DNA of 64,000 nucleotides from Solibacillus silvestris (GTDB taxonomy: Bacteria; Bacillota; Bacilli; Bacillales_A; Planococcaceae): contig CP014609.1 in NCBI GenBank assembly GCA_001586195.1, positions 2,020,001 through 2,084,000 of the forward strand. Reading direction: 5' to 3'. How positions within the stretch are numbered: position 1 is the first letter of the stretch; each line of letters opens with the position of its first letter. The notes under the pieces are model-generated. The model saw nothing but the letters and a program-made list of their open reading frames with translations, was not told the origin of the DNA and did not search any database. A program made the translations under genes and the position numbers. Below are positions 10,108 to 55,076 of the stretch, piece after piece.

Positions 10108-10112
10108 TTAAA

Positions 10113-10128
10113 TTACCCCCATCGGTAT
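10113..10128 (-). promoter_or_regulatory. CstR-like operator at the dioxygenase gene
   Basis: The minus-strand sequence ATACCG-ATGG-GGGTAA fits ATACCC-N4-GGGTAT with two mismatches. It overlaps the ribosome site of the dioxygenase gene, so part of the match could reflect the G-rich Shine-Dalgarno sequence. Confidence 0.45.
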
Positions 10129-10152
10129 ATTTTAGTTTAAAATTTTTTCTTG

Positions 10153-10548
10153 TTAAAACGTTAATGTTGGTGCAGCATCCTTCGCAAAATCCAGGAATGT
10201 AACGGCGCCACCTACTTCAATACCATCAACGAAATCTGTTTTTGTCAAACCCATCACGTCCATCGTCATTTGGCAGGCGATGAATTTCACTCCTAAATCC
10301 TGTGCCATTTCCACTAATTGCGGGATTGCCGGTACATTTGCGTTAGCAAAGCCTTCCGCAAAGTGTTCTTTGCCAGCAGGCATTTCAAGTGCATTCATCC
10401 CTTGTTTATGAATTAAATTTAGACCTTCAAATGTGAAAAAGATGGCTACTTCTTTTTCAGAAGCTGCTGCTGCCGTTGCAATATTAAATACTTTATAAGC
10501 ATCGAAAAGCCCACCGTTTGCTGCAATAATTGCTACTTTGTTTGTCAT
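10153..10548 (-). CDS. DsrE-family sulfur-transfer protein
   Basis: This 131-residue DsrE/DsrF/DsrH-fold protein has an N-terminal KVAIIAANGGLFDAYKVF nucleotide-binding-like loop, a conserved IFFTFEGLN strand, and one key Cys at ~92 in FIACQMTMDVMGL, the usual site of persulfide loading in this family. It likely shuttles sulfur between TusA/rhodanese and the dioxygenase. It is a paralogue of the gene at 11813-12289 but lacks the ~30-residue helical insert of that protein. Its ATG overlaps the TusA-rhodanese stop region (GAGTAATATG), so the two are translationally coupled. Confidence 0.87.
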   Translation of the reverse strand: MTNKVAIIAANGGLFDAYKVFNIATAAAASEKEVAIFFTFEGLNLIHKQGMNALEMPAGKEHFAEGFANANVPAIPQLVEMAQDLGVKFIACQMTMDVMGLTKTDFVDGIEVGGAVTFLDFAKDAAPTLTF

Positions 10549-10549
10549 A

Positions 10550-11110
10550 TTACTCTACCTCTTTCTTCAATTCGCCTTCATAACCTGTCATACCAGGCAA
10601 GACGTTGTATACTTTTGTAAATCCTGCTTCAGCCAATTGTTTGGCTGCCAAATCGGAGCGTGTTCCTGTACGGCAAATAACATAAATTGTTTCTTCTTTA
10701 TCAAGTTCACTCATTCGTGTTGCTAATTCGCCCATAGGAATTGATTTTGCTCCCGGGATATGGCCAAAAGCGTATTCCGCTGCTTCACGTACGTCCAAAA
10801 TCATTCCTTCTTGTTTCACGGCATCTTCATTCGAAATCGTTTGTTCAAATGATTTTTCCGCTGCATCACTGATTTCCGGATTGCACTTTCGGATATAGTG
10901 ATAAAACACACCATTTACTTCATTTGAGCCGATATATTGATGACCGACCGTTTTCGACCATGCAGCTAAATCCGCCACCGAGCCTTTGTCTGTCGCCTGA
11001 ATTTCAAGCACTTGTCCTTCTGGCACATCATTCATCGCTTTTTTTGTTCTGACAATCGGCATTGGACAAGCTAAACCTTTTGCATCAAGTTGTACGTCTG
11101 ATTTAATCAT
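10550..11110 (-). CDS. yrkF: TusA-rhodanese fusion sulfurtransferase (YrkF-like)
   Basis: This 186-residue two-domain protein has TusA in residues 1-75 with Cys15 in KGLACPMPIV, and rhodanese in ~85-186 with active-site loop ICRTGTRS (Cys146). It matches B. subtilis YrkF in length and order. It would take sulfane sulfur on one domain and relay it to the other, feeding the DsrE and dioxygenase steps. An extra Cys (residue 76, IRKCN) lies in the linker. AGGAGG is 6 bases before the ATG, and a degenerate CstR-like site overlaps this leader. Confidence 0.9.
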   Translation of the reverse strand: MIKSDVQLDAKGLACPMPIVRTKKAMNDVPEGQVLEIQATDKGSVADLAAWSKTVGHQYIGSNEVNGVFYHYIRKCNPEISDAAEKSFEQTISNEDAVKQEGMILDVREAAEYAFGHIPGAKSIPMGELATRMSELDKEETIYVICRTGTRSDLAAKQLAEAGFTKVYNVLPGMTGYEGELKKEVE

Positions 11111-11113
11111 CGT

Positions 11114-11129
11114 TATCCTCCTAAGGTAT
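11114..11129 (-). promoter_or_regulatory. Degenerate CstR-like operator upstream of yrkF
   Basis: The minus strand reads ATACCT-TAGG-AGGATA. The left half matches the operator and the right half coincides with the AGGAGG ribosome site, so this is the weakest of the internal sites. Confidence 0.3.
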
Positions 11130-11150
11130 AATCCTATTTAAATTTTTTAC

Positions 11151-11447
11151 TTACTTAACTTCACCATTCCATTCAAGCATACCGCCTGTCATATTCGTCA
11201 CGTCAAACCCTTGTGATTCCAAAAAGGCTGTTGCCTGACCGCTGCGGCCGCCTGAACGGCAAACCATAATGTATGGTGTTTTCTTATCCAATTCGTGCAT
11301 ACGGAATTCCAGTAATCCTAATGGAATATGGGTAATCCCCGGAATATGACCTGCTTCTACTTCCGATACTTCACGAACATCGATTAAATGAACCGCTTCA
11401 CCTGCTTCTAATTTTGCTTGTACTTGTTCTGGTAAAATTGTTTTCAT
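11151..11447 (-). CDS. Single-domain rhodanese sulfurtransferase
   Basis: This 98-residue rhodanese has HLIDVREVSEVEAGHIPG, IPLGLLEFRM and the active-site loop VCRSGGRS with Cys63. It is predicted to be cytosolic, since no hydrophobic leader is present. It transfers sulfane sulfur from persulfide donors. The start at 11447 is set by AAGGAGG in front of it; an in-frame extension to 11471 contains that ribosome site and overlaps the upstream gene. It is one of four rhodanese domains in the operon. Confidence 0.88.
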   Translation of the reverse strand: MKTILPEQVQAKLEAGEAVHLIDVREVSEVEAGHIPGITHIPLGLLEFRMHELDKKTPYIMVCRSGGRSGQATAFLESQGFDVTNMTGGMLEWNGEVK

Positions 11448-11460
11448 TCTTTCTTCCTCC

Positions 11461-11802
11461 TTAATAGGCACTCATGCCGCCACGTATATTCGTGACACGG
11501 CTATAGCCTAATTTTTTCAGTTGATTACATGCTTGTTTGGAACGCATGCCGCTTTGGCAAATGACCACAATTTCCTTATCCTTTGGCAGTTTTGAAAAAT
11601 CAGAGCCAAGTGGGATATTTTTAAATTGCTTCACATTGCGCGCTTTATACTCAGCAGGTGTGCGTACATCAATAAACAATTTGTCTTTGTCATTGATCAT
11701 TCTTTTGAGTTCTGTCGTCGAAATCGTGTTGACGCCTTTTGTCGGCTTCATGCGCCAGGCTAAAAATGCCACGATCACGGCGATTACTAGTATTGTTTCC
11801 AT
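11461..11802 (-). CDS. Membrane-anchored rhodanese
   Basis: This 113-residue protein has an N-terminal transmembrane segment (residues 2-16, ETILVIAVIVAFLAW) followed by a rhodanese domain: KLFIDVRTPAEY, and the active-site loop ICQSGMRS with Cys82. The anchor would place the domain on the cytoplasmic face, where it may receive sulfur near the quinone-linked sulfide oxidation step; that is an inference, and no SQR gene is in this window. It lies 10 bases after the YrkE-like gene, within the operon. Confidence 0.85.
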   Translation of the reverse strand: METILVIAVIVAFLAWRMKPTKGVNTISTTELKRMINDKDKLFIDVRTPAEYKARNVKQFKNIPLGSDFSKLPKDKEIVVICQSGMRSKQACNQLKKLGYSRVTNIRGGMSAY

Positions 11803-11812
11803 ATGTCACCTC

Positions 11813-12289
11813 TTATATGAATAGGTTGACGTTTCCGTCTTCAGCATCCGCTAAATAGGCCGCTACTCCGGCGTATTCGATGCCATCAAGCAATTCTTCT
11901 TTTTGAAGTCCCAATAAATCCATCGTCATCGTACATGTCACAAGTTTTATGTCTTGTTCCTGTGCCATTTCAACGAGTTGTGTTAACGTTAATGCGTTAT
12001 GCTTATTCATTACATGCTTGATCATTTTTGGTCCCATGCCAAGCATTTGCATTTTTGATAAGCCAAGTTTTTCTGCTCCGCGCGGCATCATTTTGGCGAA
12101 CATTTTTTCCAGGAACCCTTTCTTAACAGTTACCGGTTCTTGTTTTCGTAATGCATTGATACCCCAAAAGGTATGAAAAATTGTTACCTCATGATCATAT
12201 GCAGCCGCACCGTTTGCAATAATGTAAGCAGCCATTGCCTTGTCGTAATCACCGCTGAATAATACGATTGTTGTTCTTTTCTTTTCCAA
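11813..12289 (-). CDS. yrkE: DsrE/DsrF/DrsH-like sulfur-transfer protein (YrkE-like)
   Basis: This is a 158-residue DsrE-fold protein, close to the length of B. subtilis YrkE. It has TTIVLFSGDYDKAMAAYI, IFHTFWGINALR, a Met/Lys-rich helical insert (~55-95) and the conserved Cys in VTCTMTMDLLGL. I moved the start to the TTG at 12289, which has GGGGGA 7 bases upstream; the longer frame to 12328 runs through the operator and has no ribosome site. It is the second gene of the operon after cstR and probably accepts sulfur from rhodaneses. The paralogue is at 10153-10548. Confidence 0.85.
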   Translation of the reverse strand: MEKKRTTIVLFSGDYDKAMAAYIIANGAAAYDHEVTIFHTFWGINALRKQEPVTVKKGFLEKMFAKMMPRGAEKLGLSKMQMLGMGPKMIKHVMNKHNALTLTQLVEMAQEQDIKLVTCTMTMDLLGLQKEELLDGIEYAGVAAYLADAEDGNVNLFI

Positions 12290-12300
12290 CGAAAGTCCCC

Positions 12301-12316
12301 CTACCCCTATAGGTAT
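12301..12316 (-). promoter_or_regulatory. CstR-like operator between cstR and yrkE
   Basis: The minus strand reads ATACCT-ATAG-GGGTAG, two mismatches from ATACCC-N4-GGGTAT. It lies in the short cstR-yrkE gap just before the yrkE ribosome site. It might govern an internal promoter, though I see no clear -35/-10 pair. Confidence 0.5.
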
Positions 12317-12340
12317 AATGTATTTCAAAAATAAAAAGTC

Positions 12341-13454: not shown

Positions 13455-14777
13455 TCATGAAAGAACTTTATAAACAGCACGCTGATGCGAGAACGTTTTA
13501 AAACCATGAATTCCATGGAAATTGCCGCTTCCCGAGTTATTGACACCGCCAAATGGTAAATGAAGATGCGTATTGTGCATAAATATTCCGTTGACCGTCA
13601 CTCCGCCAGAAGACGTAGTACGGAGCACCTGCTGTTGGAAATGCTCATCCTCACTATAGATATATAGCGCTAAAGGCTTTGGATTCTGCTGGATATGGCG
13701 AATCGCTTCTGACACATCCTTATACGTTTTTACAAATGTGAGCGGTCCGAAGATTTCCTCATCCGCAATCCGCATGTCGGGTATAATATTTCCTAATAAA
13801 GTCGGCTCGATTAAACGATTTTCATCATCAAATATCCCTCCGCTTAATACGGTTGCTCCTTTTTCCATTGCATCCTCGAATAACCCCTTAATCCGATAAT
13901 AGTGTGCATCATTAACAATTTGAGTGCGCTCCGTTGTGCGTAATTTACCTTCATCATAGAGCATACCTAGCGTCATTTGCTGAAAAGCCCGTGCAAAACC
14001 TGTTAAATCGTCTTCATGAACAAATAAGTAATCTGGTGAAATACAAAACTGTCCAGCCATCATTACCTTTCCGAAAACGATTGTTTGCGCCGCTTTGAAA
14101 GGATTATACCCTTTATCGATAATAACCGGCGATTTACCGCCAAGCTCAAGCGTTACAGTTGCCAGATGCTCGGCCGCTTCACGCATGACTATTTTGCCGA
14201 CACGGGGACTGCCCGTAAAGAAGAAATGATCAAACGGCAGCTTCAGTAATTGCTCGGAAACATCGGCTTCCCCCTGAACGAACGCGACCTCCTGCTCATC
14301 AAATACCGATTCAATTATATCTTCCAGTATCTGATTATAGGCAGGATTAAACTCGCTTGGTTTAATTAATACACAGTTACCTGCAGCCAATGCATCCAAT
14401 AATGGATGAATTGTTACAGACATCGGAGAATTCCAAGTCCCGAAAATGCAAACACAGCCACGTGATTCATATAAAATATAGGCTTCTCCATCTTGAGTAT
14501 TTTCAACCCGATCAGGTTGCATCCATTGCTCCAGATGCTGAACAGTAAAATCTATCGCCGATGTAACGGAATAAATTTGTTGCTCGGCTGTCATAGTCGT
14601 CATGGCAAAATCCCTGTTCGCGGCCTCTACCAAATCCTGTGTACGCGTCAAAATCGCATTTTTCAAATTCAGCAGTTTTTTGATACGCTGTTGTGCTGTT
14701 GTTTGACGTGCCTGCCACTGAAAACATTTTTGCTTGTCAAAAATACTTTGTAGCTTGTTTATCGTAGAAAAACTCAT
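13455..14777 (-). CDS. Class 3-type aldehyde dehydrogenase
   Basis: This is a 440-residue NAD(P)-dependent aldehyde dehydrogenase of the ALDH3/coniferyl-aldehyde group (YwdH-like). The oxyanion Asn motif FGTWNSPM, the cofactor loop FTGSPRVGKIV, catalytic Glu in TLELGGKSP and catalytic Cys in GQFCISPDY are all present, as are EEIFGPL and PFGGVNNSGSG. The C-terminus ends soon after FKTFSHQRAVY, about ten residues shorter than many relatives that finish with a YPPY-like tail. The start at 14777 follows GGGAG. It lies 52 bp downstream of the MFS transporter gene and may be co-transcribed. It probably oxidises medium-chain or aromatic aldehydes; the substrate is not determined. Confidence 0.88.
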   Translation of the reverse strand: MSFSTINKLQSIFDKQKCFQWQARQTTAQQRIKKLLNLKNAILTRTQDLVEAANRDFAMTTMTAEQQIYSVTSAIDFTVQHLEQWMQPDRVENTQDGEAYILYESRGCVCIFGTWNSPMSVTIHPLLDALAAGNCVLIKPSEFNPAYNQILEDIIESVFDEQEVAFVQGEADVSEQLLKLPFDHFFFTGSPRVGKIVMREAAEHLATVTLELGGKSPVIIDKGYNPFKAAQTIVFGKVMMAGQFCISPDYLFVHEDDLTGFARAFQQMTLGMLYDEGKLRTTERTQIVNDAHYYRIKGLFEDAMEKGATVLSGGIFDDENRLIEPTLLGNIIPDMRIADEEIFGPLTFVKTYKDVSEAIRHIQQNPKPLALYIYSEDEHFQQQVLRTTSSGGVTVNGIFMHNTHLHLPFGGVNNSGSGNFHGIHGFKTFSHQRAVYKVLS

Positions 14778-14829
14778 CTTTCCCACTCCCTTTTATAAAA
14801 TTTAACTTACCTATTTCAAATCCTTTAAT

Positions 14830-16251
14830 TTAAACAAGCTGCTCTGTGACTGGTTCTTCTTCCTCTATTTTCAAATTGCGCTTTTGCAATGTGATGACAA
14901 AGATTCCAAGTGCAAGAACAACTGCGCCTAAGCATGCAAACAGTAAGTACGATAAGCCTTGACTTAAATTTGGAAGTCGTAAAAACAGTCCCAGGAAAGA
15001 TGTTGCCAATAACGACGATACTGCAACAGCTAACTGAATGACACTCATTGCAACACTAATATCTTTATCAGGTAAGTTCATTTGAATTCCTGTGTGGAAA
15101 ATTGAAATCAAAACACCGCTGGACGTTCCCCAAATTAAACAAATAATCGTTAAGGCTAATGTAGAAGCAGATGTTGTAAAGAACGTTAACGTGAAAATCA
15201 TAGAAGCAAAAATAACCATCGCAATGATTGCAACCAATTTGAAATCTTTCAATTTTACAACAAGGAATCCGCTCATTGCAGCAAATATGAAGGAAGTCGT
15301 CCCTCGAAACGTCATAAATAAGCCAGTTTCAGTTGGTGTAAAACCAAATAAATTTTGTAAGAACATCGGCAATAAAAAAATTAGCCCGGTTGCGGCAAAC
15401 ATAACGGCAAAAACACTTAACATGCAAACGACAAAAACCCGATATTTAAATAACCGTAATGGCACGACCGGATGTGCAACTTTCTTTTGGCTAGTAATAA
15501 AACCGAAAATCGACAATACAAAGACGGTTACCAACACGAACATCGGGACAGATAGCCAAGGAATTCTTGAGCCGCCAAATGTTGTAATCGCAACAAAAAC
15601 TAAAATAGCGGCACTTAAAATACTTATTCCCTTATAATCAAGTTTTGCATTTTCTGTCCTCGGAATATTCGGCATATATTTAACGACTAAATACAAGCCG
15701 ATCACTCCAATTGGAGCAATCGAATAAAATACCCAGTGCCAGGACATATACTGTACAAATATTCCACCCAATGTAGGTGCGACTATTGCTGTAATGGCAT
15801 TTAATGCCCCATAAAACCCTAAAAACTTCGCCCTGTTCGCCAAATCAAATATATCGCTGATGACGATCAGACCAACTACAGCCGCAAGTGCGCCGCCCAA
15901 GCCCTGTATCGCTCGGAAAATCATTAAATGGTAAATATTTGATACCAACAAAGGTGTTATTATTTCCGAGACTAAGATAACTAAAATACCGATAATCAAA
16001 ATTTGTCTGCGTCCATAAATATCACTCATTTTTCCCACTATTGGCGTCATTATTGCACTTACAGTCAAATTTACAGTGAATACGAGCGAGTAAAATTCGA
16101 TGCCGCCAATATCATCAATAATTTTAGGCAACGCGACTGAGAACTGGGAGGAAACCATAAGCCCCAATTCTATACACATAAAGACCCCAACCATTAATAA
16201 AACCTTTTGTTTATATGTTAGCGACTCAACAGTTTTAGACGTTTTTAACAT
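14830..16251 (-). CDS. MFS drug/solute transporter (DHA2, EmrB/QacA type)
   Basis: This 473-residue proton-linked efflux transporter has about 14 hydrophobic segments. MFS signatures visible are GKMSDIYGRRQIL (motif A loop 2-3), FRAIQGLGGALAAVVGLIV (motif B) and GFYGALNAITAIVAPTLGG (motif C of antiporters). The tail (EEEEPVTEQLV) is acidic and cytoplasmic. The ATG at 16251 was chosen after GAGGTG; the frame includes an upstream GTG inside the ribosome site. It sits just upstream of the aldehyde dehydrogenase, so the pair could expel and detoxify a common compound, but this is only positional inference. Confidence 0.85.
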   Translation of the reverse strand: MLKTSKTVESLTYKQKVLLMVGVFMCIELGLMVSSQFSVALPKIIDDIGGIEFYSLVFTVNLTVSAIMTPIVGKMSDIYGRRQILIIGILVILVSEIITPLLVSNIYHLMIFRAIQGLGGALAAVVGLIVISDIFDLANRAKFLGFYGALNAITAIVAPTLGGIFVQYMSWHWVFYSIAPIGVIGLYLVVKYMPNIPRTENAKLDYKGISILSAAILVFVAITTFGGSRIPWLSVPMFVLVTVFVLSIFGFITSQKKVAHPVVPLRLFKYRVFVVCMLSVFAVMFAATGLIFLLPMFLQNLFGFTPTETGLFMTFRGTTSFIFAAMSGFLVVKLKDFKLVAIIAMVIFASMIFTLTFFTTSASTLALTIICLIWGTSSGVLISIFHTGIQMNLPDKDISVAMSVIQLAVAVSSLLATSFLGLFLRLPNLSQGLSYLLFACLGAVVLALGIFVITLQKRNLKIEEEEPVTEQLV

Positions 16252-16398
16252 GAACAAAATCACCTCTTTGATTTTGATTATTTTGTTAGACTAAACTTTC
16301 CGCTCAATTAAACAAATAGCCCGAACTAAAACAATGTTGTGTCGTCGGATCAGACGTCTTAGCTATCGATTCGGACTAATTTTCTGAGTTTCATTAAA

Positions 16399-16454
16399 AT
16401 AGAGAGCGACTTGATTTAAATATTTCAAATATTTAAACGCAAATCACTCTCTAT
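16399..16454 (-). terminator. Terminator of the acyl-CoA operon
   Basis: ATAGAGAG.. (16399 on) pairs with ..CTCTCTAT (ending 16454). The two imperfect 27-28-base arms contain TTAAATATTT and AAATATTTAA at the apex. It is a long hairpin directly after the last gene of the seven-gene operon, without a strong U-run. Confidence 0.6.
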
Positions 16455-16464
16455 ATATCATCCT

Positions 16465-17637
16465 CTATTTATGCGCCATAATAGGTTGCTGCTCTGTTTG
16501 TACAGAATTTTGACTGGTCCAATTTAAAGCATTAATTGCCAGATCATAATATTGATCAATGCTTCCTAAATAATTTTCGTAGTATTTAGCCTGCTTTATA
16601 AATAAGTGGCAATCGATTTCCTCCGTGAATCCAATCCCGCCATGAATTTGGATATTATGGGACGCCAAACGAATGAATGCCTGCGTTGCAAAAATACGCG
16701 CACTGCAAATTGCCTCAATCCGGTCTTCTGAAAAAGTCTCCATTGCCCAGTTTGCATAATAGGAAAGCGAACGTGCAGTCTCCAAATCCAATTTCATATC
16801 TGCTAGACGATGTTTAATCGCCTGGAATCTGCCGATAGGGTTTCCGAATTGTTCACGGATTTTAGCGTACTCGCTGGCCATCTCCACTATATGCTCCATT
16901 GCACCTACCGCTACGGAAGATAACGCAGCATTATAATAAAGCAAACCCTCCTGCAACATTCCCCAGCCATCTCCTATTTGGCCAATAACATTTTCAGCCG
17001 GAACTTTCACTTGTTCAAATTCAACCATTGACAGTTTTCTCGTTTCAGCAAAATTATCCTGTGGTGTAATTGAAATTCCCGGTGTGCTAAGATCCACAGT
17101 GATTAATGTAATTTCATTGTGTATTCGTAGCGGAACTATAGCATGCTGTGCGAGCTCTAAATCTGGCACCTGTGTTTTCACACCATTTAAAATAATCTGC
17201 CCCTGACTCACTTCACCAGAAAGCCGGATTCCCTGCTCTTTATAGCTGCCACCTGGCTCTAACCATGCCACCGTTAAATTTAAATCCGAATCGGCTATTT
17301 CCTTTAAAAAATACTGCTTCTGCTCCTTCGTTCCGAAACGTTCAATCAAAGGAACTGCCAATGCATTTGTTTCAAGGTGTAAACCCGGAAGCAATACCCT
17401 GCCGAACTCTTCCATGATCGGCACTAAATCGAGCTGGCCTAAGCCCATTCCCTCGAATTCTTCCGGGATATTCAATTTTGTCCAGCCCAATTCCTTTAAA
17501 TCCGATAAAATATTTTTTACATGCTCTGTTTTGTTATCAATATAATCTCTTGCAATTTTCGTATGTTCCATATCCCCTAAAAATTTCTTTATATATTCCC
17601 GAAACATTTCCTGTTCCTGGCTTAGAGAAAAGTCCAT
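16465..17637 (-). CDS. Acyl-CoA dehydrogenase, non-canonical C-terminus (beta-type subunit?)
   Basis: This 390-residue acyl-CoA dehydrogenase homologue has the expected three-domain fold (MDFSLSQEQEMFREY start, middle domain with LTVAWLEPGG, C-terminal helix REQFGNPIGRFQAIKHRLADM). The last part is unusual. Where typical enzymes have the FAD-adenine and catalytic-Glu stretch (YEGTSEIQR-like), this protein reads NYLGSIDQYYDLA, so the catalytic base and FAD contact are not evident. Together with the neighbouring dehydrogenase, which keeps GTSEIQRN, this suggests an alpha2-beta2 heteromer as in steroid side-chain FadE pairs. It is the last gene of the operon, 19 bp after its partner. Confidence 0.85.
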   Translation of the reverse strand: MDFSLSQEQEMFREYIKKFLGDMEHTKIARDYIDNKTEHVKNILSDLKELGWTKLNIPEEFEGMGLGQLDLVPIMEEFGRVLLPGLHLETNALAVPLIERFGTKEQKQYFLKEIADSDLNLTVAWLEPGGSYKEQGIRLSGEVSQGQIILNGVKTQVPDLELAQHAIVPLRIHNEITLITVDLSTPGISITPQDNFAETRKLSMVEFEQVKVPAENVIGQIGDGWGMLQEGLLYYNAALSSVAVGAMEHIVEMASEYAKIREQFGNPIGRFQAIKHRLADMKLDLETARSLSYYANWAMETFSEDRIEAICSARIFATQAFIRLASHNIQIHGGIGFTEEIDCHLFIKQAKYYENYLGSIDQYYDLAINALNWTSQNSVQTEQQPIMAHK

Positions 17638-17656
17638 CTATTCACCTTCTTCTCAT

Positions 17657-18853
17657 TTATTTGCCAATATCCTTTGGCAGGCCTAAAATGCGCTCCGCAA
17701 TTGTATTTCTCTGGATTTCACTCGTACCGCCTCCGATTGTTTGACCAAAGGCATAGAGATAATTCCTTTGCCAATACGAGTCGCCATACACGGCATCCTT
17801 TTTCCATAACAGTCCTTGGTGCCCCTGAATTGAAATGGCTTCTGCGAACAGTTCTTTTGTATTTTCGCTGACTAAGAGTTTATCCATTGAGCCTTCCACT
17901 CCAGGATGACCCACTTTTAGCTGCTTAGTTAAATTGCGGTAATAGTTCAGCAAGGACCCGCGCGACTTAATATACAAATCCAGCAGTCTTTTGCGGACAT
18001 CCGGCTTTTCTATTACAGGCACATGATCCTCCGTAACATTGCGGGCCAGTTCCACCAGCTCATCAAATTGCTGTTCCAATGAGAACACCTGTGCACCAAT
18101 GCCCGTTCTTTCATGCATGAGCAACGCAATTGTTACACGCCATCCATCATCGACAGCACCGATAATTTCACTTTCATAGGCAACCGCATCATTCAAATAA
18201 ACCTCATTGAAATCATGCTCTCCATCCATTTGAATAATTGGTCTAACCTCGACGCCCGGCTGATTCATATCCAATAAAAAACATGTAATCCCATGGTGCT
18301 TTTTCTCGCCCTTACTCGTTCGGGCTACTAAAAAGCAGCGATCTGCAAAATGGGCAAAGCTTGTCCAGATTTTCTGCCCATTTATAATCCACTTATCGCC
18401 GTCTTTCACCGCTGTCGTTTGAACAGCAGCCAAATCCGAGCCTGCGTTTGGTTCAGAATAACCTTGGCACCATACTTCCTCACCGGTAATAATTTTTGAT
18501 ATATATTTCTCCTGCTGTTCCTTGCTGCCGATCTGCATGAGCGTGGGACCTACCATATGTAAGCCCACATAGTTAACAAGTGGCGGTGCCTTCACACGAA
18601 CCATTTCCTGATGATAAATGATTTCTTCCATCAGCGTCGCATTGCGGCCGCCTTGCTTTTCCGGCCAAGCAATCGCTGCCCATCTTCCCTCTGAAAGTTT
18701 TCTTTGCCAATTCCGTAAAAATTGGCCTAGCTCTTGTTGATTTTCCGGCATTTTAAATGTGCCATCCAGCCAGCCCTCCGGCAGATTATTTTCCAGCCAT
18801 TCGCGAAGCTCCAGACGAAACTGCTCCTCCTGACTTGTGTACGAAAAGTCCAT
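17657..18853 (-). CDS. Acyl-CoA dehydrogenase (alpha-type subunit)
   Basis: This 398-residue FAD-dependent dehydrogenase forms the 2,3-double bond in an acyl-CoA. Visible are the N-terminal helices, CQGYSEPNAGSDLAAVQT (FAD/substrate loop), GQKIWTSFAHFADRCFLVARTS, and the C-terminal TIGGGTSEIQRNTIAERILG. The residue before GTSEIQ is Gly rather than the catalytic Glu of short/medium-chain enzymes, so the base may lie elsewhere or be supplied differently, as in bile-acid/steroid and long-chain CoA dehydrogenases. GGAGGG precedes the ATG. The same start motif (MDFS) in the adjacent gene suggests an old duplication. Confidence 0.88.
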   Translation of the reverse strand: MDFSYTSQEEQFRLELREWLENNLPEGWLDGTFKMPENQQELGQFLRNWQRKLSEGRWAAIAWPEKQGGRNATLMEEIIYHQEMVRVKAPPLVNYVGLHMVGPTLMQIGSKEQQEKYISKIITGEEVWCQGYSEPNAGSDLAAVQTTAVKDGDKWIINGQKIWTSFAHFADRCFLVARTSKGEKKHHGITCFLLDMNQPGVEVRPIIQMDGEHDFNEVYLNDAVAYESEIIGAVDDGWRVTIALLMHERTGIGAQVFSLEQQFDELVELARNVTEDHVPVIEKPDVRKRLLDLYIKSRGSLLNYYRNLTKQLKVGHPGVEGSMDKLLVSENTKELFAEAISIQGHQGLLWKKDAVYGDSYWQRNYLYAFGQTIGGGTSEIQRNTIAERILGLPKDIGK

Positions 18854-18877
18854 CCATATCCCTCCTTCTAAAAGAAT

Positions 18878-19312
18878 TTAGACCATTACCCACTGTGGAA
18901 TCGCTCGCTCCTCAGTAGCCTCTATCCATACCATTTTTACCTTTGTTCCGATGGAAACAGTTTCTGTATTGCCATGGAGTACATTACCAATGATCTTGAT
19001 GTCAGGGTATTCCTCCAATTGGACAACAGCGATCACTGTTGGTAGTTCATTTTGGAAGCCCGGTAAAAATGGTCTATTTGAAACGATATAGGTGTAGACC
19101 TCACCGGTAATTGTTGAACCTAAGTTTTCCCAGAATACATCGATGCTTCCGCAGTTTGCGCAGCTCGGTCCAGGGGGGTGATTATAATTGCTGCATGTAT
19201 TGCATTTTTGCACATTCAGCTCATGTCGATCTGCCGCATCCCAGTAAGGTGCATTATAGGTGTTTTTCAAAGGAATAGGCTTTTCGTAAATTACTTTCGT
19301 CTCTTCTTTCAT
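18878..19312 (-). CDS. Zn-ribbon/OB-fold protein (DUF35)
   Basis: This 144-residue DUF35 protein has an N-terminal rubredoxin-like zinc ribbon (CNTC and CANC pairs, residues ~27-48) followed by an OB-fold with TGEVYTYIVSNRPFLPGF and KVKMVWIEA. DUF35 proteins partner thiolase-like enzymes and acyl-CoA hydratases. In actinobacterial cholesterol catabolism the DUF35 of ChsH2 binds the aldolase Ltp2. Here it directly follows a thiolase-like gene (11 bp), so it should be that enzyme's obligate partner. The start at 19312 (second ATG) has better spacing from GGAGG than the ATG at 19318. Confidence 0.87.
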   Translation of the reverse strand: MKEETKVIYEKPIPLKNTYNAPYWDAADRHELNVQKCNTCSNYNHPPGPSCANCGSIDVFWENLGSTITGEVYTYIVSNRPFLPGFQNELPTVIAVVQLEEYPDIKIIGNVLHGNTETVSIGTKVKMVWIEATEERAIPQWVMV

Positions 19313-19323
19313 TGTCATTCCTC

Positions 19324-20487
19324 CTATTTACATAAAATCATGGCACCGGCAACATCCGGTCCTGTCCAACCTGTACAAATTGCCAGTTCTGTATCTTTTA
19401 CCTGACGTTCTGTTCCCTCATATTCACGTCGAACTTGGCGGACAATTTCCAATACATTGTTCATGCCGTGTGTATAGCCTTCCGAAAGCATGCCACCCGC
19501 TGTATTTGTAGGAAGCTTGCCATCCATTCGCAAGTTTCCAGCACTTACAAAATCCCCCACTTCGCCTTTTGGTACAAGTCCGTATGCCTCGAGCTGACGT
19601 AAAACAACCCAGCTGAAACAGTCATAAATCGATGCAACCTTAATATCCTCAGGTGAAACGCCCGCATTCTCGTATAATCGTGGCGCAACATAATCTGCTG
19701 CAACTTCATCGATATTTTTCCAGTAATGGGCGTGGGATACTACTTCTCTTGCAGCCATGCCTAAAATTTTTACAGGAACGGATTTGCAGTCTTTGGCACG
19801 CTCTGTGGAAGTTACAATAATCGCGTTTGCCTCATCCGACTCCAAACAGTAGTCATGCTTTGTAAATGGTGAACTTAAATGTGCCGTGCTCATATATTCT
19901 TCCATCGTCAATGGCTTCCCGTAAAAAAATGCTTTCGGATTCCGCTGTGCATGCTCGTAAAAGCTTGTGCAAACATGCCCTAAATGCTCCTGTGTCAAGC
20001 CGTTCAAATGCATATGGCGAGTGGCAAACAACCCGAACCATTGCCCTGGACTGCCTGCCCCATAAGGAATAATAAAGCTCCCGCCATCAAAACCGTTTTG
20101 AAGGGCATCAATACTGAATCCGCCCCCACCCATGCGGACACCGGAGCGTCCATTCATCGAGCGGAAAATAAGCACGGTATTTGCCTGTCCTGTTTCAATC
20201 AAACCAATGGCCTCTGCGATTAAGAGCTCGGTACTGCTCCCCCCGCCGAACATTTCTTTCACAACTTTAGGCCGAACCCCTAAATATGTTGCCACCTGAT
20301 GCGGATTACAAGAATCCATCTCCGAATAGCTCATGAACCCATCAATGTCTTTTGCTTCCAAACCTGCATCTGCTAGTGCAGCCCGTGCTGCTTCCAACGC
20401 CAATTCCAATGGGGTAACCCCGGAATTTTTCGAACGATTACTTTCGCCTACACCAACAATGGCATATTTTTCCCTGATTTTTTCCAT
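19324..20487 (-). CDS. Thiolase-superfamily protein, Ltp2/SCPx-like, lacking the nucleophilic Cys (possible retro-aldolase)
   Basis: This 387-residue thiolase-fold protein has the duplicated thiolase core (IDGFMSYSEMD, FGGGSSTELLIAEAIGLIETG, YDCFSWVVLRQLE, TAGGMLSEGYTHGMNNVLEIV, CTGWTGPDVAGAMIL). The position of the acyl-accepting Cys in true thiolases is occupied by Gly (MFGGGSST). The usual GHPxG His motif is replaced by SEGYTHGMN. This pattern belongs to lipid-transfer-protein-type thiolases such as Ltp2, which cleave beta-hydroxy acyl-CoAs by retro-aldol reaction with a DUF35 partner. The DUF35 gene is next to it. A carbon-carbon cleaving role is inferred, not shown. Confidence 0.85.
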   Translation of the reverse strand: MEKIREKYAIVGVGESNRSKNSGVTPLELALEAARAALADAGLEAKDIDGFMSYSEMDSCNPHQVATYLGVRPKVVKEMFGGGSSTELLIAEAIGLIETGQANTVLIFRSMNGRSGVRMGGGGFSIDALQNGFDGGSFIIPYGAGSPGQWFGLFATRHMHLNGLTQEHLGHVCTSFYEHAQRNPKAFFYGKPLTMEEYMSTAHLSSPFTKHDYCLESDEANAIIVTSTERAKDCKSVPVKILGMAAREVVSHAHYWKNIDEVAADYVAPRLYENAGVSPEDIKVASIYDCFSWVVLRQLEAYGLVPKGEVGDFVSAGNLRMDGKLPTNTAGGMLSEGYTHGMNNVLEIVRQVRREYEGTERQVKDTELAICTGWTGPDVAGAMILCK

Positions 20488-20506
20488 TCAGCCCACTCCC
20501 TCTATG

Positions 20507-20920
20507 TTAAAATTGGATAATGGCTTCGCCAGATCCAACAACCTCGCCTATGTCCTTAACTGCATATAATTTCAAAACAACCTCTGTCCTACCGTCAATT
20601 TTCGTTTTTTCCTTGACGATTCCTTTACACACAATTTCATCCTCCGGAACGGTCATGGCACCAAAGCGCATTTTAAAATCGGTTACTGTACCTTCATTCG
20701 ATACAATTTTATTCACGTATTCTCCTAAAAAACCCATGATTAGCATTCCGTGTGCAATCACACCATTTAACCCGATTTTCTGGGCGAAAGCATCATCTGT
20801 ATGCAAAGGATTAAAATCACCTGAAGCTCCTGCATATTTTACAAGCTGAACCTTTGTTACCTTTTCTTTTTTATATTCCGGCAGATTCAGCCCTTCCACT
20901 AATTGGCTAAGATCAATCAT
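20507..20920 (-). CDS. MaoC-like enoyl-CoA hydratase, catalytic subunit
   Basis: This 137-residue single hot-dog protein carries the R-specific hydratase motif YAGASGDFNPLHTDDAFA with both the catalytic Asp and His, then IAHGMLIMGFLGE and a C-terminal VVGSGEAIIQF. It would add water to a 2-enoyl-CoA. Single-domain MaoC proteins work as dimers, and the neighbour at 20949-21398 lacks the His, so a heteromer with one active site per pair is likely. AGGACAG precedes the ATG. It lies 19 bp before the thiolase-like gene in the operon order. Confidence 0.88.
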   Translation of the reverse strand: MIDLSQLVEGLNLPEYKKEKVTKVQLVKYAGASGDFNPLHTDDAFAQKIGLNGVIAHGMLIMGFLGEYVNKIVSNEGTVTDFKMRFGAMTVPEDEIVCKGIVKEKTKIDGRTEVVLKLYAVKDIGEVVGSGEAIIQF

Positions 20921-20948
20921 ATTAATCTGTCCTTTCTGTATAAGAAAT

Positions 20949-21398
20949 TTAGTTCAGCACTAACGGGCGGTATACAATATTAGTTCGGCTTGTTACTATG
21001 TGCCCGCCGTTTTCGTCTTTTATTTCTGTATCGAATAAAATGAATTCCATCATGCCGTTTTTTCCTTCTTTTTCATATACATCCGTCACCTTCATCTGGC
21101 AGTACAGCATCTCTCCCACACGAATCGGACGAGTATAGAAAAATTGCTGTTCACCATGAAGCATTCGTCTGTAATCCAACCCTAAATCCAAAGCGTCATT
21201 TTCATTGTCGGGTGTCACGGCAACAGGAAACGTCAACGGTGCAACGATCCCTTTATGAGGTGTATTTTTGGCATATTCTTCATCCGTATAAAGCGGGTTC
21301 GCATCGCCAATCGCCTGCGCAAATTGTCTAATATGACGCTGCTCCACCTTGAAGGTAAAGGGTTTACCTGTTTTACCGATTAAATGTGCAAGCTCCAT
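20949..21398 (-). CDS. MaoC-like/FAS1-type dehydratase subunit without catalytic His
   Basis: This 149-residue hot-dog fold protein has the motif FAQAIGDANPLYTDEEYAK, which aligns with the hydratase motif of the next gene but has Tyr where the catalytic His should be. A longer N-terminal strand (KTGKPFTFKVEQRHIRQ) and MLHGEQQFFYTRPIRVGE follow the N-terminal MaoC dehydratase (MaoC_dehydrat_N) group. It probably stabilises or shapes the substrate pocket of the partner, as ChsH1/ChsH2 do. The start at 21398 was chosen because GGAGG lies 8 bases upstream. It is the second gene of the operon. Confidence 0.85.
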   Translation of the reverse strand: MELAHLIGKTGKPFTFKVEQRHIRQFAQAIGDANPLYTDEEYAKNTPHKGIVAPLTFPVAVTPDNENDALDLGLDYRRMLHGEQQFFYTRPIRVGEMLYCQMKVTDVYEKEGKNGMMEFILFDTEIKDENGGHIVTSRTNIVYRPLVLN

Positions 21399-21402
21399 CG
21401 CT

Positions 21403-23568
21403 TTATCCTCCAATCAATTCCTTTTTAATACTCTCTTCAGTCACTACAAGCATGGCATCTGCAGCCTTGATTCCATTTTCATAAACAATCAGCGGATTAA
21501 TATCCAATTCCTTGATTTGGTCTCTATAATCAAGCATTAACTGGGAAACTCTTAAAAGCACATCGATAATCGCTTCTTTATCTACCGCTACCTGACCCCG
21601 AGCCCCGTCCAAAATGGCCTTTGCCTGCAGTTCGTCCAATAGTGTCCCGGCATCCTGTCTGCTTAATGGTGCAATCTTGAAGGCGATATCCTTAAACACC
21701 TCAACAAAAATGCCACCTAAACCAGCCATAATAACCGGTCCGAATACTTCATCATTTTTTGCGCCGATAATCACTTCTGTCCCCTGCGGCAGCATTTCCT
21801 GTACAGAAACACCATTTAAAATAGCAGTAGGATTGTAGTTCCTTGCATTTTTCATAATTTCCATGAATGCTTCCTTCACTTCTTCTTCAGAAGAGACATT
21901 TAAACGAATTGCATCTGCCTCTGTTTTGTGAGGGATTTGCTGCGAATCGATTTTCAGCACAACCGGAAACCCAATCTGCAATGCTCTTTCCACAGCTTCT
22001 TCCGCAGAAAGTGTTACATAGCGCTTAGTGATTGGAATGCCATACCTCGCTAGAACTTCACTCGCCTCTGACTCACTTAAAACAGCACCTGGTGTTAACA
22101 AATCATCAATATTCTCATGTTCATAACGTTCTTCCATCCCATCTGTTTGAACGGTATTTAAAAACTGACTGTATTCTACTAATTGTGATAATGCCCGCAC
22201 CGGGTTTAATGCGCCTGATACTACCGCTATTTCATTTTCAATTAAGATCGGAGTCGTTTGTGGGTATGTGATCTCTCCTAATGGAAACGGGAAAAAACCA
22301 ATAAATTTTTCACTGTTTTTTGCGACGGTTATAAACTCTTTGAAATACTCGTTATGCTCATCCCAGCTATGCGGAAACTCTGTCAGCAGGATGTTATCAA
22401 CCTCAGGACTATTCACAAGCACCTTTAGGGTATCCAGGAAAAATTCCGGATTTGTGAAAGAGGCTGCGGCAGTCAAGTCAATTGGGTTCGTAACACTTGC
22501 GTAATCCGGTAAAGTCTTGCGCATTTCCGCCATTGTCTCATCAGAAAGTCTGACAATATTCAATCCATATGCCTCACAGCGATCCGCTTCATTAATGCCC
22601 CGGCCGCCGGAGCTTGTAATAATCGCCGTGTTTTTGCCCTTTGGCAATCGATTTGGATTAAACAATTTTGAAAAGGCAATGACATCCTCTGCATCTTCTA
22701 CACGAATAATGCCGTGCTGCCTGAAAAACGCATCGTAGATTTTATCCGATCCAGCGAGTGCTCCCGTATGAGAGGCAGCTGCTCTGCTCCCGGCATCACT
22801 ACGCCCGGTTTTCATTAATACAATCGGCTTTTTCTTTTCCAAAGCCTTATGTGCTGCCTGTTTCAGCTTTTCAGGGTTTTTTGCTCCTTCGATATAGCCG
22901 CTGATCACTTCAATCTCATCATCATGGACCATATAGTCGATATAATCTTCCATTGTTGTATCCATTTCATTTCCGCTGCTGATAAAATAGTTGAAGTTGA
23001 TGCCATACTGGGCTGCTGCCATATATGTTAAAACACCGAATGCACCGCTCTGTGACACATAGCCAACTCCTCGCTTACCACTCATTGGAACGTCTAACAC
23101 AGAAGATGAGAAGGTGCCGATTAAACCATTCGATGTATTGACTAAACCGACACAGTTTGGACCCAGCAATCGAATATTATTTAATTTGGCATATTCCGCC
23201 AACTCCAGCTGTAGTTTCTTTCCTTCTTCACCAGCCTCCGAAAAACCGGAAGCAAAAATGATCGCAGCTTTTACCTTTTTTTCTGCGCAGGCGATTAGGC
23301 CATTTTTAATCTGATCGTAGGCTACACAGAAAATAACGAGATCAATAGAATTCGGGACATCTGTCAATGACGGGTAGCTTTTCAGGCCCGCAATTTGCTC
23401 CGCTTTCGGATGGATCGGATAGATTTCGCCTTGAAATTTACCGTCAATCAGTGCCTGGAGCTGAATGTTGCCGATTTTGTACTTATTCTCTGATGCGCCT
23501 AAAATCGCGACCGATTCAGGATAAAGTAATGGCCTAATGGATTCATAGCTTTCTACATTTTGAGTCAT
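21403..23568 (-). CDS. ADP-forming acyl-CoA synthetase (acetate-CoA ligase family)
   Basis: This 721-residue fused NDP-forming acyl-CoA ligase has an N-terminal CoA-binding domain (VAILGASENKYKIGNIQ, ~residue 20-130), a ligase_CoA/succinyl-CoA-synthetase-like region with the phosphohistidine-type motif SHTGALAGSDKIYDA, and a C-terminal ATP-grasp domain (~500-721) with YGIPITKRYVTLSAEEAV and ELDINPLIVY. It would activate the carboxylate that the rest of the operon degrades, or conserve energy by the reverse reaction. The start at 23568 follows AGGAGG by 7 bases; the frame is open 18 codons further up. It is the first gene of the operon, and its stop nearly abuts the next start. Confidence 0.88.
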   Translation of the reverse strand: MTQNVESYESIRPLLYPESVAILGASENKYKIGNIQLQALIDGKFQGEIYPIHPKAEQIAGLKSYPSLTDVPNSIDLVIFCVAYDQIKNGLIACAEKKVKAAIIFASGFSEAGEEGKKLQLELAEYAKLNNIRLLGPNCVGLVNTSNGLIGTFSSSVLDVPMSGKRGVGYVSQSGAFGVLTYMAAAQYGINFNYFISSGNEMDTTMEDYIDYMVHDDEIEVISGYIEGAKNPEKLKQAAHKALEKKKPIVLMKTGRSDAGSRAAASHTGALAGSDKIYDAFFRQHGIIRVEDAEDVIAFSKLFNPNRLPKGKNTAIITSSGGRGINEADRCEAYGLNIVRLSDETMAEMRKTLPDYASVTNPIDLTAAASFTNPEFFLDTLKVLVNSPEVDNILLTEFPHSWDEHNEYFKEFITVAKNSEKFIGFFPFPLGEITYPQTTPILIENEIAVVSGALNPVRALSQLVEYSQFLNTVQTDGMEERYEHENIDDLLTPGAVLSESEASEVLARYGIPITKRYVTLSAEEAVERALQIGFPVVLKIDSQQIPHKTEADAIRLNVSSEEEVKEAFMEIMKNARNYNPTAILNGVSVQEMLPQGTEVIIGAKNDEVFGPVIMAGLGGIFVEVFKDIAFKIAPLSRQDAGTLLDELQAKAILDGARGQVAVDKEAIIDVLLRVSQLMLDYRDQIKELDINPLIVYENGIKAADAMLVVTEESIKKELIGG

Positions 23569-23591
23569 TTGCATTCCTCCTAAAATGTTTT

Positions 23592-23606
23592 TAGATGATT
23601 CATCTA
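23592..23606 (-). promoter_or_regulatory. 15-bp palindrome in the leader of the acyl-CoA operon
   Basis: TAGATGATTCATCTA is a perfect inverted repeat with a one-base centre. It lies 24 bp before the first start codon of the operon. It looks like a repressor operator near the transcription start; the regulator is unknown and no regulator gene adjoins the operon. Confidence 0.5.
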
Positions 23607-23801
23607 TGAACCCATCATACATTTCCTTATTTATTTACACTGAAAATTCTGACTAGTAAATTAATAGAGTTATTATGTTGTCAATATACTGGAATAATTC
23701 ATTTAGAGCCTTGTAACTGCTGCTATTTGAATAGGGTGGAAAAAATCTTATGTACATACTAACCCCGACTTTCATTCAATATAATCTCGACTTCGTATCT
23801 A

Positions 23802-23829: not shown

Positions 23830-23865
23830 AAAAATAAAAAGCCTCCGAATAATTTCAGAAGCTTT
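23830..23865 (-). terminator. Terminator overlapping the stop of the 673-residue protein gene
   Basis: AAAGCCTCCGA (23838-23848) pairs with TCAGAAGCTTT (23855-23865), with A-runs at 23830-23837 giving a U-tract on the minus strand. The stop codon (23855-23857) lies inside the right arm, so translation and termination signals overlap. Confidence 0.75.
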
Positions 23866-25876
23866 GGTCAAATCGCTCTAGCCATTCCCATATTTTCTTT
23901 TGAATTTTAGAGGAACCTACAACAAGCCCTCTCTCGATTTTATTTAAATACGAAGCAGAAACTTCAATTTCCTCCGCGATATTCGTTAGCGTAAGGTTAT
24001 GATTCCTGCGTACTCGATTCATACGCTGGATGAGCTCTGTCTGGAGACTGCTCTGCATATCCTTACTAGTCGCAACAGACTTGGCGGGCTTCTTCACTCT
24101 CTCAATCGACCGGTAATGTTCTTTTATTTCAGGAGAAGGATCGATAACGATGGAAGTATTTAGCCAATATTTGGCCCAGCCCTTTCCTTCCGCTCTATTT
24201 TCATCCCAGTTGATATAGTACCAGTCGGCAATAATTTTATCCTCCACTAATTTATCCAGCGCCTTTTCAAACCGCTCCCTTGTTCTGATTGGTAGACGAT
24301 TATTTAGCCCATGCCCGCAAACTTCCAATAGCGTATTCACTTTGTTTAATTGCTGGTAGTCCCCTTTATATGCCTGTGTCCTCCATCTCCAGCTTAAATA
24401 GCGGCATAATTTTTTCTCAAGGTTAAATCGTGCCGGATGATAGTGCATTGCTTTTAACGGAAGTAATGCCATCTGCCGCTTGGACGAGACTAAATATTTC
24501 GCGAATACTTTATCGACCGTAAATGTTATGGACTTACCGCAAGTCTCCTCATTCACTTCATATTCCTCACCGTTTGCATTTTTGAATAAAAAGGTCCTGC
24601 CTTGGACTTCTACCTGAATTGGCTTGTTATTTTTGTACATCACGGTTTTATCAATGGTTAGCCACAGACTTTGAATCACCTTTAAGGAATGGATGACCTG
24701 TTCCCTCTGTTTTGTTTCAAAGCCCCCACGCCGCCCATCTCCATTGAGTTTAGGCCGGAGCCCCCTCATTGTTAAAATATCCCTTAATTCAATTTCAACA
24801 ATATCGTCTAGATTTTTTGCCAGCTGTAAATAAAGATGACAAAGAATATCTAGTACATCCACATCGATAATGGACATTTGCCGGACTAAATTTGACGCAA
24901 TTTGTTGCATATTTTCATAAGCAGAATTAAAGTTCCGGTTCTCCTTAATAAACGGAATGATTTGAAGATTACCGCTCGTATTTCCCTTCTCAAAAATATA
25001 TTTAGGCCAAATACCTTCATCACCTATCACAAATTTCTTTTTATAAATCGATTCTCTCACTACATGATAGGCTACATTATTCAGAACATTTGCATAGTTG
25101 GACATGTATTTCGGTTGAAGTGCATCACTGCCTGCCCCACCATTTTCAGGCTGTTCGATGACACTACCAAGTTGTAAAGAGGCGGAAACATTATTATTTA
25201 TTTCATTGATCAGTCTTCTTTGCCATTCTTTAAGATAATGATCGACATTATGACTGAACTTCCTAATAAATGATTTATTAGTTGCCAGATTAAAGCGCAG
25301 TAATTCAAAAAATTTCACATTTAACTCTTCTATCGTTAATTCTTTGATACCTCTGATTCCGTCCAGCAGAATCATTTCCTCTAAAATAAAGATTTTTAAT
25401 TGATTCTGGAGCCAAATATAAAAATTATCCCACGTATCCTCTTTACCTATAAATGTTTCATTCTGTATAATTGCCTTCGTTTCCTCAATAGAATTCTCTA
25501 GCAATTGATCGTTATTTAATATTGCATTACTTCCCTGAGTGCTATGGGCTACAATATAAAAGTTAATGGAAATCGCCATCTTTTCAATTATTCTTTTTCG
25601 CAGCTGTAACCGAATTTTATAATATAACTCCTTATTTCTAGCATACTCCTCCTCATCAATAATATAACTTGGAGTATTCGTATTGCCTTCATCCTGTTCC
25701 AGATCGACAATGGAGCCCTCCTCAATATGTCTGTCGAAAAAGAGACTGTAATTCATTTTTTCAATAGGAGCATCATTGACCGAAAGAACATAAAAATTTT
25801 TTATTCTGTGCTTTTCTTCCTCCATTGTACGTTCCAAATATACCTGCGTAGATTCATTAGTTATATAATTAAACAT
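23855..25876 (-). CDS. Large protein of unknown function with C-terminal XRE-type HTH
   Basis: I do not recognise this 673-residue protein. Residues 1-~600 show no familiar motif: an acidic N-terminus, long predicted helices, and a basic segment near 500-560 (KKLCRYLSWRWRTQAY, then NRLPIRTRERFEKALDKLV) that reads like a winged-helix or DNA-binding region. The last ~55 residues are a clear XRE/lambda-repressor HTH (NHNLTLTNIAEEIEVSASYL, then NKIERGL). The overall plan resembles replication-initiator-like or phage/plasmid regulators more than a metabolic repressor. It is monocistronic, with a GGGAGGG ribosome site, a terminator, and AT-rich codons. It lies between the acyl-CoA operon and a reductase gene. 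Confidence 0.75.
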   Translation of the reverse strand: MFNYITNESTQVYLERTMEEEKHRIKNFYVLSVNDAPIEKMNYSLFFDRHIEEGSIVDLEQDEGNTNTPSYIIDEEEYARNKELYYKIRLQLRKRIIEKMAISINFYIVAHSTQGSNAILNNDQLLENSIEETKAIIQNETFIGKEDTWDNFYIWLQNQLKIFILEEMILLDGIRGIKELTIEELNVKFFELLRFNLATNKSFIRKFSHNVDHYLKEWQRRLINEINNNVSASLQLGSVIEQPENGGAGSDALQPKYMSNYANVLNNVAYHVVRESIYKKKFVIGDEGIWPKYIFEKGNTSGNLQIIPFIKENRNFNSAYENMQQIASNLVRQMSIIDVDVLDILCHLYLQLAKNLDDIVEIELRDILTMRGLRPKLNGDGRRGGFETKQREQVIHSLKVIQSLWLTIDKTVMYKNNKPIQVEVQGRTFLFKNANGEEYEVNEETCGKSITFTVDKVFAKYLVSSKRQMALLPLKAMHYHPARFNLEKKLCRYLSWRWRTQAYKGDYQQLNKVNTLLEVCGHGLNNRLPIRTRERFEKALDKLVEDKIIADWYYINWDENRAEGKGWAKYWLNTSIVIDPSPEIKEHYRSIERVKKPAKSVATSKDMQSSLQTELIQRMNRVRRNHNLTLTNIAEEIEVSASYLNKIERGLVVGSSKIQKKIWEWLERFDQSF

Positions 25877-47676: not shown

Positions 47677-47678
47677 CA

Positions 47679-51514: not shown

Positions 51515-51553
51515 GTGGTCGCTAAGTAGCTTCCCCCCTTGTTATATTTCTGT

Positions 51554-51583
51554 ACTATAGTTTACACGAGAATGTTCTGACAA
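51554..51583 (-). promoter_or_regulatory. sigma-A promoter of mutA-mutB-meaB
   Basis: TTGTCA (51578-51583), an 18-base spacer and TATAGT (51554-51559) on the minus strand. It sits directly after the bkdB terminator and ~40 bases before the mutA start. Confidence 0.65.
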
Positions 51584-51590
51584 TAAAGAG

Positions 51591-51628
51591 AAAAAAAACG
51601 TGAAAGCCTTATTTTACAGGCTTTCACG
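51591..51628 (-). terminator. Terminator of the bkd operon
   Basis: CGTGAAAGCC (51599-51608) and GGCTTTCACG (51619-51628) form a perfect 10-bp stem with an 8-base U-run on the minus strand (51591-51598), 6 bases after the bkdB stop. Confidence 0.9.
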
Positions 51629-51634
51629 GCATTT

Positions 51635-55056: not shown

Positions 55057-55076
55057 AAAATACCCCCTTGTCACTC

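Follow-up and report, generated by a model that had tools for sequence, protein, structure and literature searches.

We examined a 64,000-nucleotide stretch of Solibacillus silvestris DNA (the window, whose positions are used throughout) from a genome consisting of one 3.99-Mb contig, and found a compact seven-gene operon at 16465-23568 of the minus strand, with all open reading frames (ORFs) on that strand. ORF and domain assignment recovered here seven adjacent genes with every family that a preliminary description, made from the letters alone, had named. From 23568 to 16465 the order is ADP-forming acyl-CoA ligase, MaoC1, MaoC2, a thiolase-like protein (LTP), DUF35 and the acyl-CoA dehydrogenases ACAD1 and ACAD2, as follows.

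21403-23568, minus strand: ADP-forming acyl-CoA ligase (domains CoA-binding, Succ_CoA_lig and ATP-grasp_5), predicted to activate an acid.
20949-21413, minus strand: MaoC1, HadA/ChsH2-like hydratase partner with Asp37/Tyr42, predicted non-catalytic acyl-binding subunit.
20507-20920, minus strand: MaoC2, HadB-like predicted catalytic hydratase subunit with Asp35/His40.
19324-20487, minus strand: LTP, predicted thiolase-fold retro-aldolase with Tyr288, Cys290 and Tyr338 as predicted active site and Gly83 where the nucleophilic Cys would be.
18878-19318, minus strand: DUF35 partner (zf-ChsH2 and OB_ChsH2_C by domain match), with a C-x2-C-x10-C-x2-C zinc ribbon, as aligned, and an OB fold.
17657-18853, minus strand: ACAD1, which carries Glu248 and Pro90 and is predicted to be the catalytic alpha subunit in a heteromeric acyl-CoA dehydrogenase.
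16465-17637, minus strand: ACAD2, predicted non-catalytic beta subunit, with no Glu at the base positions.
16399-16454, minus strand: intrinsic-terminator-like hairpin closing the seven-gene unit.

The six intergenic gaps range from -11 to +28 bp, and purine-rich stretches lie near the gene starts, the weakest at MaoC1. The ligase start was taken as the ATG at 23568 behind AGGAGG; that of MaoC1 is listed as a TTG at 21413 but may instead be an ATG five codons into the gene. The hairpin 3' of ACAD2 had a folding energy of -27.3 kcal/mol (z -6.86), and none of 200 shuffles was as stable. What the analysis establishes is which genes are present and in what order, how well they are conserved, their active-site residues, their phylogeny and predicted folds, and their patterns of co-occurrence.

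The sole domain match of LTP among the thiolase families was Thiolase_C_1. Gly83 stood at the thiolase nucleophile position in 46/46 sequences, so that LTP is, as first described, a thiolase homologue without the nucleophilic Cys. Tyr288 and Tyr338, which align with the catalytic Tyr294 and Tyr344 of TcLtp2, were likewise found in all 46, and the motif YDC[FY] was equally constant (46/46), with a Sal-type Cys (Cys290) where Ltp2 has His296 (YDHF). Thus the Sal-type Tyr-Asp-Cys dyad of Tyr288 and Cys290 was invariant (46/46), and the Sal-type Gln was absent, Tyr338 taking its place in every sequence. Furthermore, the best solved matches of LTP and DUF35 were two chains of the same structure, the TcLtp2-ChsH2(DUF35) aldolase 6ok1. 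To judge from these residues, LTP looks like a retro-aldolase of the Ltp2/Sal type.

Phylogeny was examined with IQ-TREE on 39 rows, thinned for approximately unbiased (AU) tests and including nine Bacilli rows. The groups tested were named only after inspection of a first quick tree of 108 rows, built without three thiolase rows that were distant or odd; this quick tree agrees with the result. The nine Bacilli LTP rows and one row from a betaproteobacterial metagenome-assembled genome (MAG) formed one group (100/100), which shared a 30-row side with TcLtp2 (99/97); Sal, 4u4e and the Cys-type rows lay outside it. LTP is therefore a separate clade next to Ltp2. A tree that joined it to two Cys-bearing SCP2-type rows, named by their ACASG and HDCF motifs, was rejected (AU p 2e-4), so the placement with Cys-dependent thiolases that the preliminary description had named as refuting was not recovered. 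Gly83, the tree and the fold scores led us to reject a canonical thiolase.

LTP-DUF35 gene pairs of a sister clade occurred at loci L115-L148 in Chloroflexota, Rokubacteria, Proteobacteria and others, with Ala (YDAF) at the position of the Ltp2 His and Sal Cys and with the second Tyr kept. On a betaproteobacterial MAG contig (L111:6765-11600, plus strand) a 58% LTP homologue was accompanied by DUF35 and a 33% ADP-forming ligase, with no MaoC or ACAD match within the stretch examined.

The remaining enzymes of the operon were then compared with solved structures. The top three matches of ACAD1 were ChsE4 (4x28_A) and Tcur3483 (6wy8_B and 6wy9_A), the next match standing at 3.8e-33. Its Glu248 aligns with ChsE4 Glu247, which we take to be the catalytic base, and its Pro90 with ChsE4 Pro89, and both were present in 46/46. 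In alpha2beta2 acyl-CoA dehydrogenases the alpha subunit bears the catalytic Glu, and the helix-E proline (Pro89 in ChsE4) has been linked to bulky substrates (both in passages of PMC11153573). In ACAD2, the helix-G base region (residues 233-240) lacked Glu in all 46 sequences, and residue 357, where the medium-chain acyl-CoA dehydrogenase (MCAD)-type Glu of 1ukw lies, was Leu, Phe, Met or Val and never Glu (0/46; Leu357 in the window protein). The Acyl-CoA_dh_M domain of ACAD2 scored below the Pfam cut-off. The motif GTSEIQRN occurred in ACAD1 and not in ACAD2, as had been reported. These sequence features suggest that ACAD1 and ACAD2 may pair as an alpha2beta2-type dehydrogenase in which only one of the two subunit types is catalytic.

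Both MaoC proteins are single-domain MaoC/FAS1_DH proteins, and the Asp/His plus Asp/Tyr pair noted earlier was confirmed. MaoC2 kept Asp and His in 46/46; MaoC1 kept Asp in 46/46 and Tyr42 in 45/46, with Phe in the other. The same His-to-Tyr change is carried by the non-catalytic ChsH2 (described in part of PMC11321319). By sequence, HadA/HadB-type and fused MaoC-like chains were closer to the pair than ChsH1/ChsH2, with HadB among the best solved relatives of MaoC2, and HadA-type and fused MaoC-like proteins among those of MaoC1. The DUF35 gene adjoins that of LTP and is separate from the MaoC genes, without a MaoC-DUF35 fusion. Its four zinc-ribbon Cys, a C4 and not a C3H1 pattern, were present in 46/46, and adjacency together with this pattern suggests that DUF35 is the partner of LTP.

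A gene-neighbourhood survey, proposed with the original description, revealed that this arrangement is conserved. A single scan of named genomes confirmed 223 candidates, of which the best 80 were kept, 45 from Bacilli and 35 from others; Sporosarcina ureae DSM 2281 (L114) is one holder of the operon. The core MaoC1-MaoC2-LTP-DUF35-ACAD1-ACAD2 kept its order and strand in 44/45 Bacilli loci, the exception being Lysinibacillus odysseyi (L080), in which the MaoC pair lies on the far side; the loci are kin and their counts not independent, and the conservation is more than chance. The ligase was ADP-forming in 30/45 and belonged to an AMP-forming-type cluster in 14/45 (Pfam-confirmed for L080, L087 and L100), with both in one locus and neither in two, one of them a 7.6-kb contig. 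Because the ligase swaps type while the core order holds, the entry enzyme is exchangeable, unlike the six-gene core. An orthologue (at least 68% identity) was present in 25/151 sampled genomes of the family and 5/16 of the genus, and in 9/398 genomes sampled across the class (E 1e-120); distribution is patchy. By LTP, the closest named relative among the kept loci was Solibacillus merdavium (97%). A blastn search of PLSDB with 16465-23622 for plasmid-borne copies of the whole operon returned only three records, all short pieces.

Two genes lie beyond the hairpin.

14830-16263, minus strand: major facilitator superfamily (MFS) transporter of the DHA2/EmrB type by homology, behind the terminator, accessory.
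13455-14786, minus strand: class-3-type aldehyde dehydrogenase (ALDH) by homology, which would oxidise the aldehyde that LTP is predicted to release.

An ALDH was found within the examined flank of 36/45 Bacilli loci. In 33/45 it followed the operon on its 3' side, downstream of the aldolase genes, and in 22 of these it was at most 60 bp from the last gene. The window MFS cluster occurred in 4/45 loci and another MFS cluster in 23/45; since transporter clusters differ between loci, they give no clue to the substrate.

Collectively, these data make it probable that the operon serves the catabolism of a bulky carboxylic acid, branched, cyclic or aryl-substituted, which is shortened by an aldol-type cut and not by thiolysis. 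In the five-step scheme that we infer, together with its direction, subunit pairing and substrate class, the ADP-forming ligase would turn the acid into its acyl-CoA, ACAD1-ACAD2 would yield the 2-enoyl-CoA, and MaoC2 would hydrate this to the 3-hydroxyacyl-CoA while MaoC1 holds the bulky chain. LTP-DUF35 would then perform a retro-aldol cleavage to acetyl- or propionyl-CoA and a carbonyl compound, in which Tyr288 may accept the proton of the beta-hydroxyl and Cys290 and/or Tyr338 may protonate the enolate. Finally, the carbonyl product, most likely an aldehyde, would be oxidised by the neighbouring ALDH to the shortened acid. The association of an ALDH with the operon favours an aldehyde, as in the logic of Sal and Sad, over the ketone of igr. 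Pro90 and the heteromeric-type MaoC and ACAD proteins indicate a probably bulky substrate. PrpD-type and methylmalonyl-CoA mutase genes are both in the genome, so propionyl-CoA disposal cannot separate an acetyl from a propionyl product. Methylmalonyl-CoA mutase genes also lie in the window, 23 kb from the operon (46594-56495, minus strand), beside what by eye is apparently a branched-chain 2-oxoacid dehydrogenase complex.

Several results weigh against this scheme. An LTP clade with Sal was rejected (AU p 1.3e-8, Sal and several plasmid rows being long branches), as was a clade holding only LTP, TcLtp2 and the Vibrio homologue of the latter (AU p 4.7e-5), and because LTP falls in neither clade its aldolase activity is predicted from residues. 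Cys371, near the C-terminal thiolase motif in 38/46 sequences, may leave some thiolase-like chemistry possible. The best solved match of ACAD2 was the ordinary MCAD-like 1ukw (1.5e-42), the steroid beta subunits ranking lower (6wy8_A, 4.2e-23; 4x28_D, 1.9e-22), and the structure models are silent on complex formation. The ALDH was not found in the examined flank of 9/45 loci (among them L106, a 7.6-kb contig), lay on the opposite strand 11-13 kb from ACAD2 in 3/45, and in Solibacillus sits behind the terminator as a separate unit; for these reasons it could serve another step.

Among other explanations, strict igr logic fares best, though we regard it as unlikely. Here the substrate would be branched at the beta carbon, the hydroxyl tertiary and the products a ketone plus acetyl- or propionyl-CoA, with ALDH making the starting acid from an aldehyde. 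Such chemistry is consistent with the two TcLtp2 tyrosines kept in LTP, its phylogenetic placement on the same side as Ltp2 (99/97) and the separate or missing ALDH of the loci just described, but the invariant Sal-type Cys argues for an aldehyde product, and so does the ALDH position 3' of the aldolase genes, although gene order is only suggestive. Short-chain-dehydrogenase-like genes, possibly including an alcohol dehydrogenase, recur in 8/45 flanks and would suit igr logic; however, they are scattered over both strands, and no other alcohol dehydrogenase was recognised by eye from the first 50 residues of the 30 recurrent flank clusters listed.

That the operon degrades the side chain of a steroid or bile acid is improbable. 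In favour of this reading, LTP, DUF35 and ACAD1 all have steroid enzymes as their nearest solved relatives, the large-cavity proline is found in ACAD1, and the steroid aldehyde dehydrogenase 9nxl was 11th of the 12 listed matches of the window ALDH (E 5.9e-75), behind fatty-aldehyde and class-3 enzymes. Against this, the HsaC family (TIGR03213), a marker of steroid-ring degradation, gave no match over the cut-off in the genome and five below it (KstD, KshA, HsaD and IpdAB were not searched), which led us to reject full steroid catabolism and makes a fully degraded steroid a poor candidate for the substrate; exogenous bile acids may still have their side chains partly trimmed. Ordinary beta-oxidation, with LTP either a true thiolase or an enzyme of biosynthetic acyl condensation, is very improbable: the thiolase fold, Cys290, Cys371 and the thiolases and acyltransferases that DUF35 proteins also partner (6esq, among the structure matches of DUF35; PhlABC and benzoylsuccinyl-CoA thiolase in passages of PMC12329534) are outweighed by Gly83, the rejected SCP2-type grouping and a core without 3-hydroxyacyl-CoA dehydrogenase, even given the short-chain-dehydrogenase-like genes of 8/45 flanks.

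Returning to the aldol-type reading, we compared the operon with known systems. The preliminary description had proposed that it mirrors igr of Actinobacteria (ChsE1-ChsE2, ChsH1-ChsH2 and Ltp2), and this was borne out in part. Like igr, it has a dehydrogenase pair with one predicted catalytic subunit, a catalytic/inert MaoC pair by the same His-to-Tyr change as in ChsH2, an Ltp2-side aldolase with both catalytic Tyr and a DUF35 partner with a C4 zinc site; LTP and DUF35 match 6ok1 best, and ACAD1 matches ChsE4 and Tcur3483 best. Unlike igr, it has a stand-alone DUF35 gene, YDCF and not YDHF, an LTP clade of its own, an ADP-forming ligase, an ALDH and no HsaC-family match over the cut-off; the claimed likeness to the steroid dehydrogenases held for ACAD1, through ChsE4, and not for the MCAD-like ACAD2, and that to ChsH1-ChsH2 held for the Asp/His and Asp/Tyr pattern and not for overall similarity, which was nearer to HadA/HadB. 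An igr-like set, ORF40-44, is present in Comamonas testosteroni TA441, and in Comamonas low-identity igr-like sets can be functional (PMC12502768).

The Sal-Shy-Sad system of Proteobacteria shares the aldolase Tyr-x-Cys dyad, the DUF35 association and an ALDH handling an aldehyde, and differs in Sal Gln352 versus LTP Tyr338 and in a C3H1 versus a C4 zinc site (parts of PMC12329534 and PMC11321319); it also has one fused Shy versus two MaoC genes, and the Sal clade was rejected. The operon appears to blend features of igr and Sal/Shy/Sad without full membership of either, and by analogy the bile-acid module may be an equally good functional model, since an ALDH is associated. IpfE is a DUF35 protein, and IpfD-IpfE acts after ring dioxygenation. 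In ibuprofen-degrading Sphingomonadaceae this system resembles the present one, by description only, in its thiolase-like ipfDE, non-steroid catabolism and propionyl-CoA release (passages of PMC9195938). The eukaryotic SCP2-thiolase-like TbSLP has the YDCF motif and no clearly assigned function (part of PMC12329534), with 24% identity over the aligned part and no operon. The MaoC pair has HadAB, the (3R)-hydroxyacyl-ACP dehydratase, among its best solved relatives; HadAB belongs to a biosynthetic context, the pair to a predicted catabolic CoA operon.

Upstream of the ligase lies a candidate regulator.

23855-25876, minus strand: UPS, 673 aa, candidate dedicated regulator by predicted fold and co-occurrence.

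Residues 257-586 of UPS have a predicted plasmid-replication-initiator fold, and a C-terminal XRE-type helix-turn-helix (HTH) is predicted. UPS was found in 22/25 genomes with the operon and in 0/126 without it, in a search that scored at most seven candidates per genome; 5/22 full-length matches had one in-frame stop in the matched stretch. Weak homologues occurred on plasmids, mostly of Bacilli. We infer that UPS is likely the dedicated regulator of the operon, which would be an unusual role for a replication-initiator fold. A bolder and tentative proposal, to which we give somewhat less than even odds, is a steroid-independent aldolytic beta-oxidation of Bacilli, in which a composite Tyr-Cys-Tyr aldolase carries the acid groups of both Sal and Ltp2, the aldehyde is oxidised and recycled, and the dedicated regulator, tied to the operon across many genera, is a plasmid replication initiator that has been domesticated (Rep fold with an XRE HTH).

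No description of this Bacilli operon was found in the open-licence PMC papers searched, in keeping with the initial remark that no such pathway was known in this group. Steroid degradation by Actinobacteria and Proteobacteria is the setting in which DUF35-partnered aldol-type side-chain cleavage has been described. A self-contained version that is conserved in many Bacilli genera, in a window genome without an HsaC-family match over the cut-off, would suggest a general route for acids ill-suited to thiolysis. It would also offer new hosts for studying such cleavage, with an LTP active site that merges residues of two characterised steroid aldolases.

Other igr-like sets and one unrelated cluster were also observed. 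A second, different igr-like operon occurs in genome G134 of the Sporosarcina genus group (L059:7394-14009, minus strand), with ligase-like, ACAD, two MaoC-like, thiolase-like (YDAF), DUF35 and ACAD genes followed by CoA-transferase-like genes, several assigned by eye; its thiolase-like protein groups with TcLtp2 (99/96) and is present in 5/261 genomes of the order. A Vibrio alfacsensis plasmid (L150:5494-12704, plus strand) carries an igr-like set of OB-fold protein, ACADs, MaoC and a YDHF lipid-transfer protein, with electron-transfer flavoprotein genes nearby. In the window itself, 8980-12328 of the minus strand holds a cluster of rhodanese-, DsrE/TusA- and metallo-hydrolase-like genes, by eye apparently for persulfide handling.

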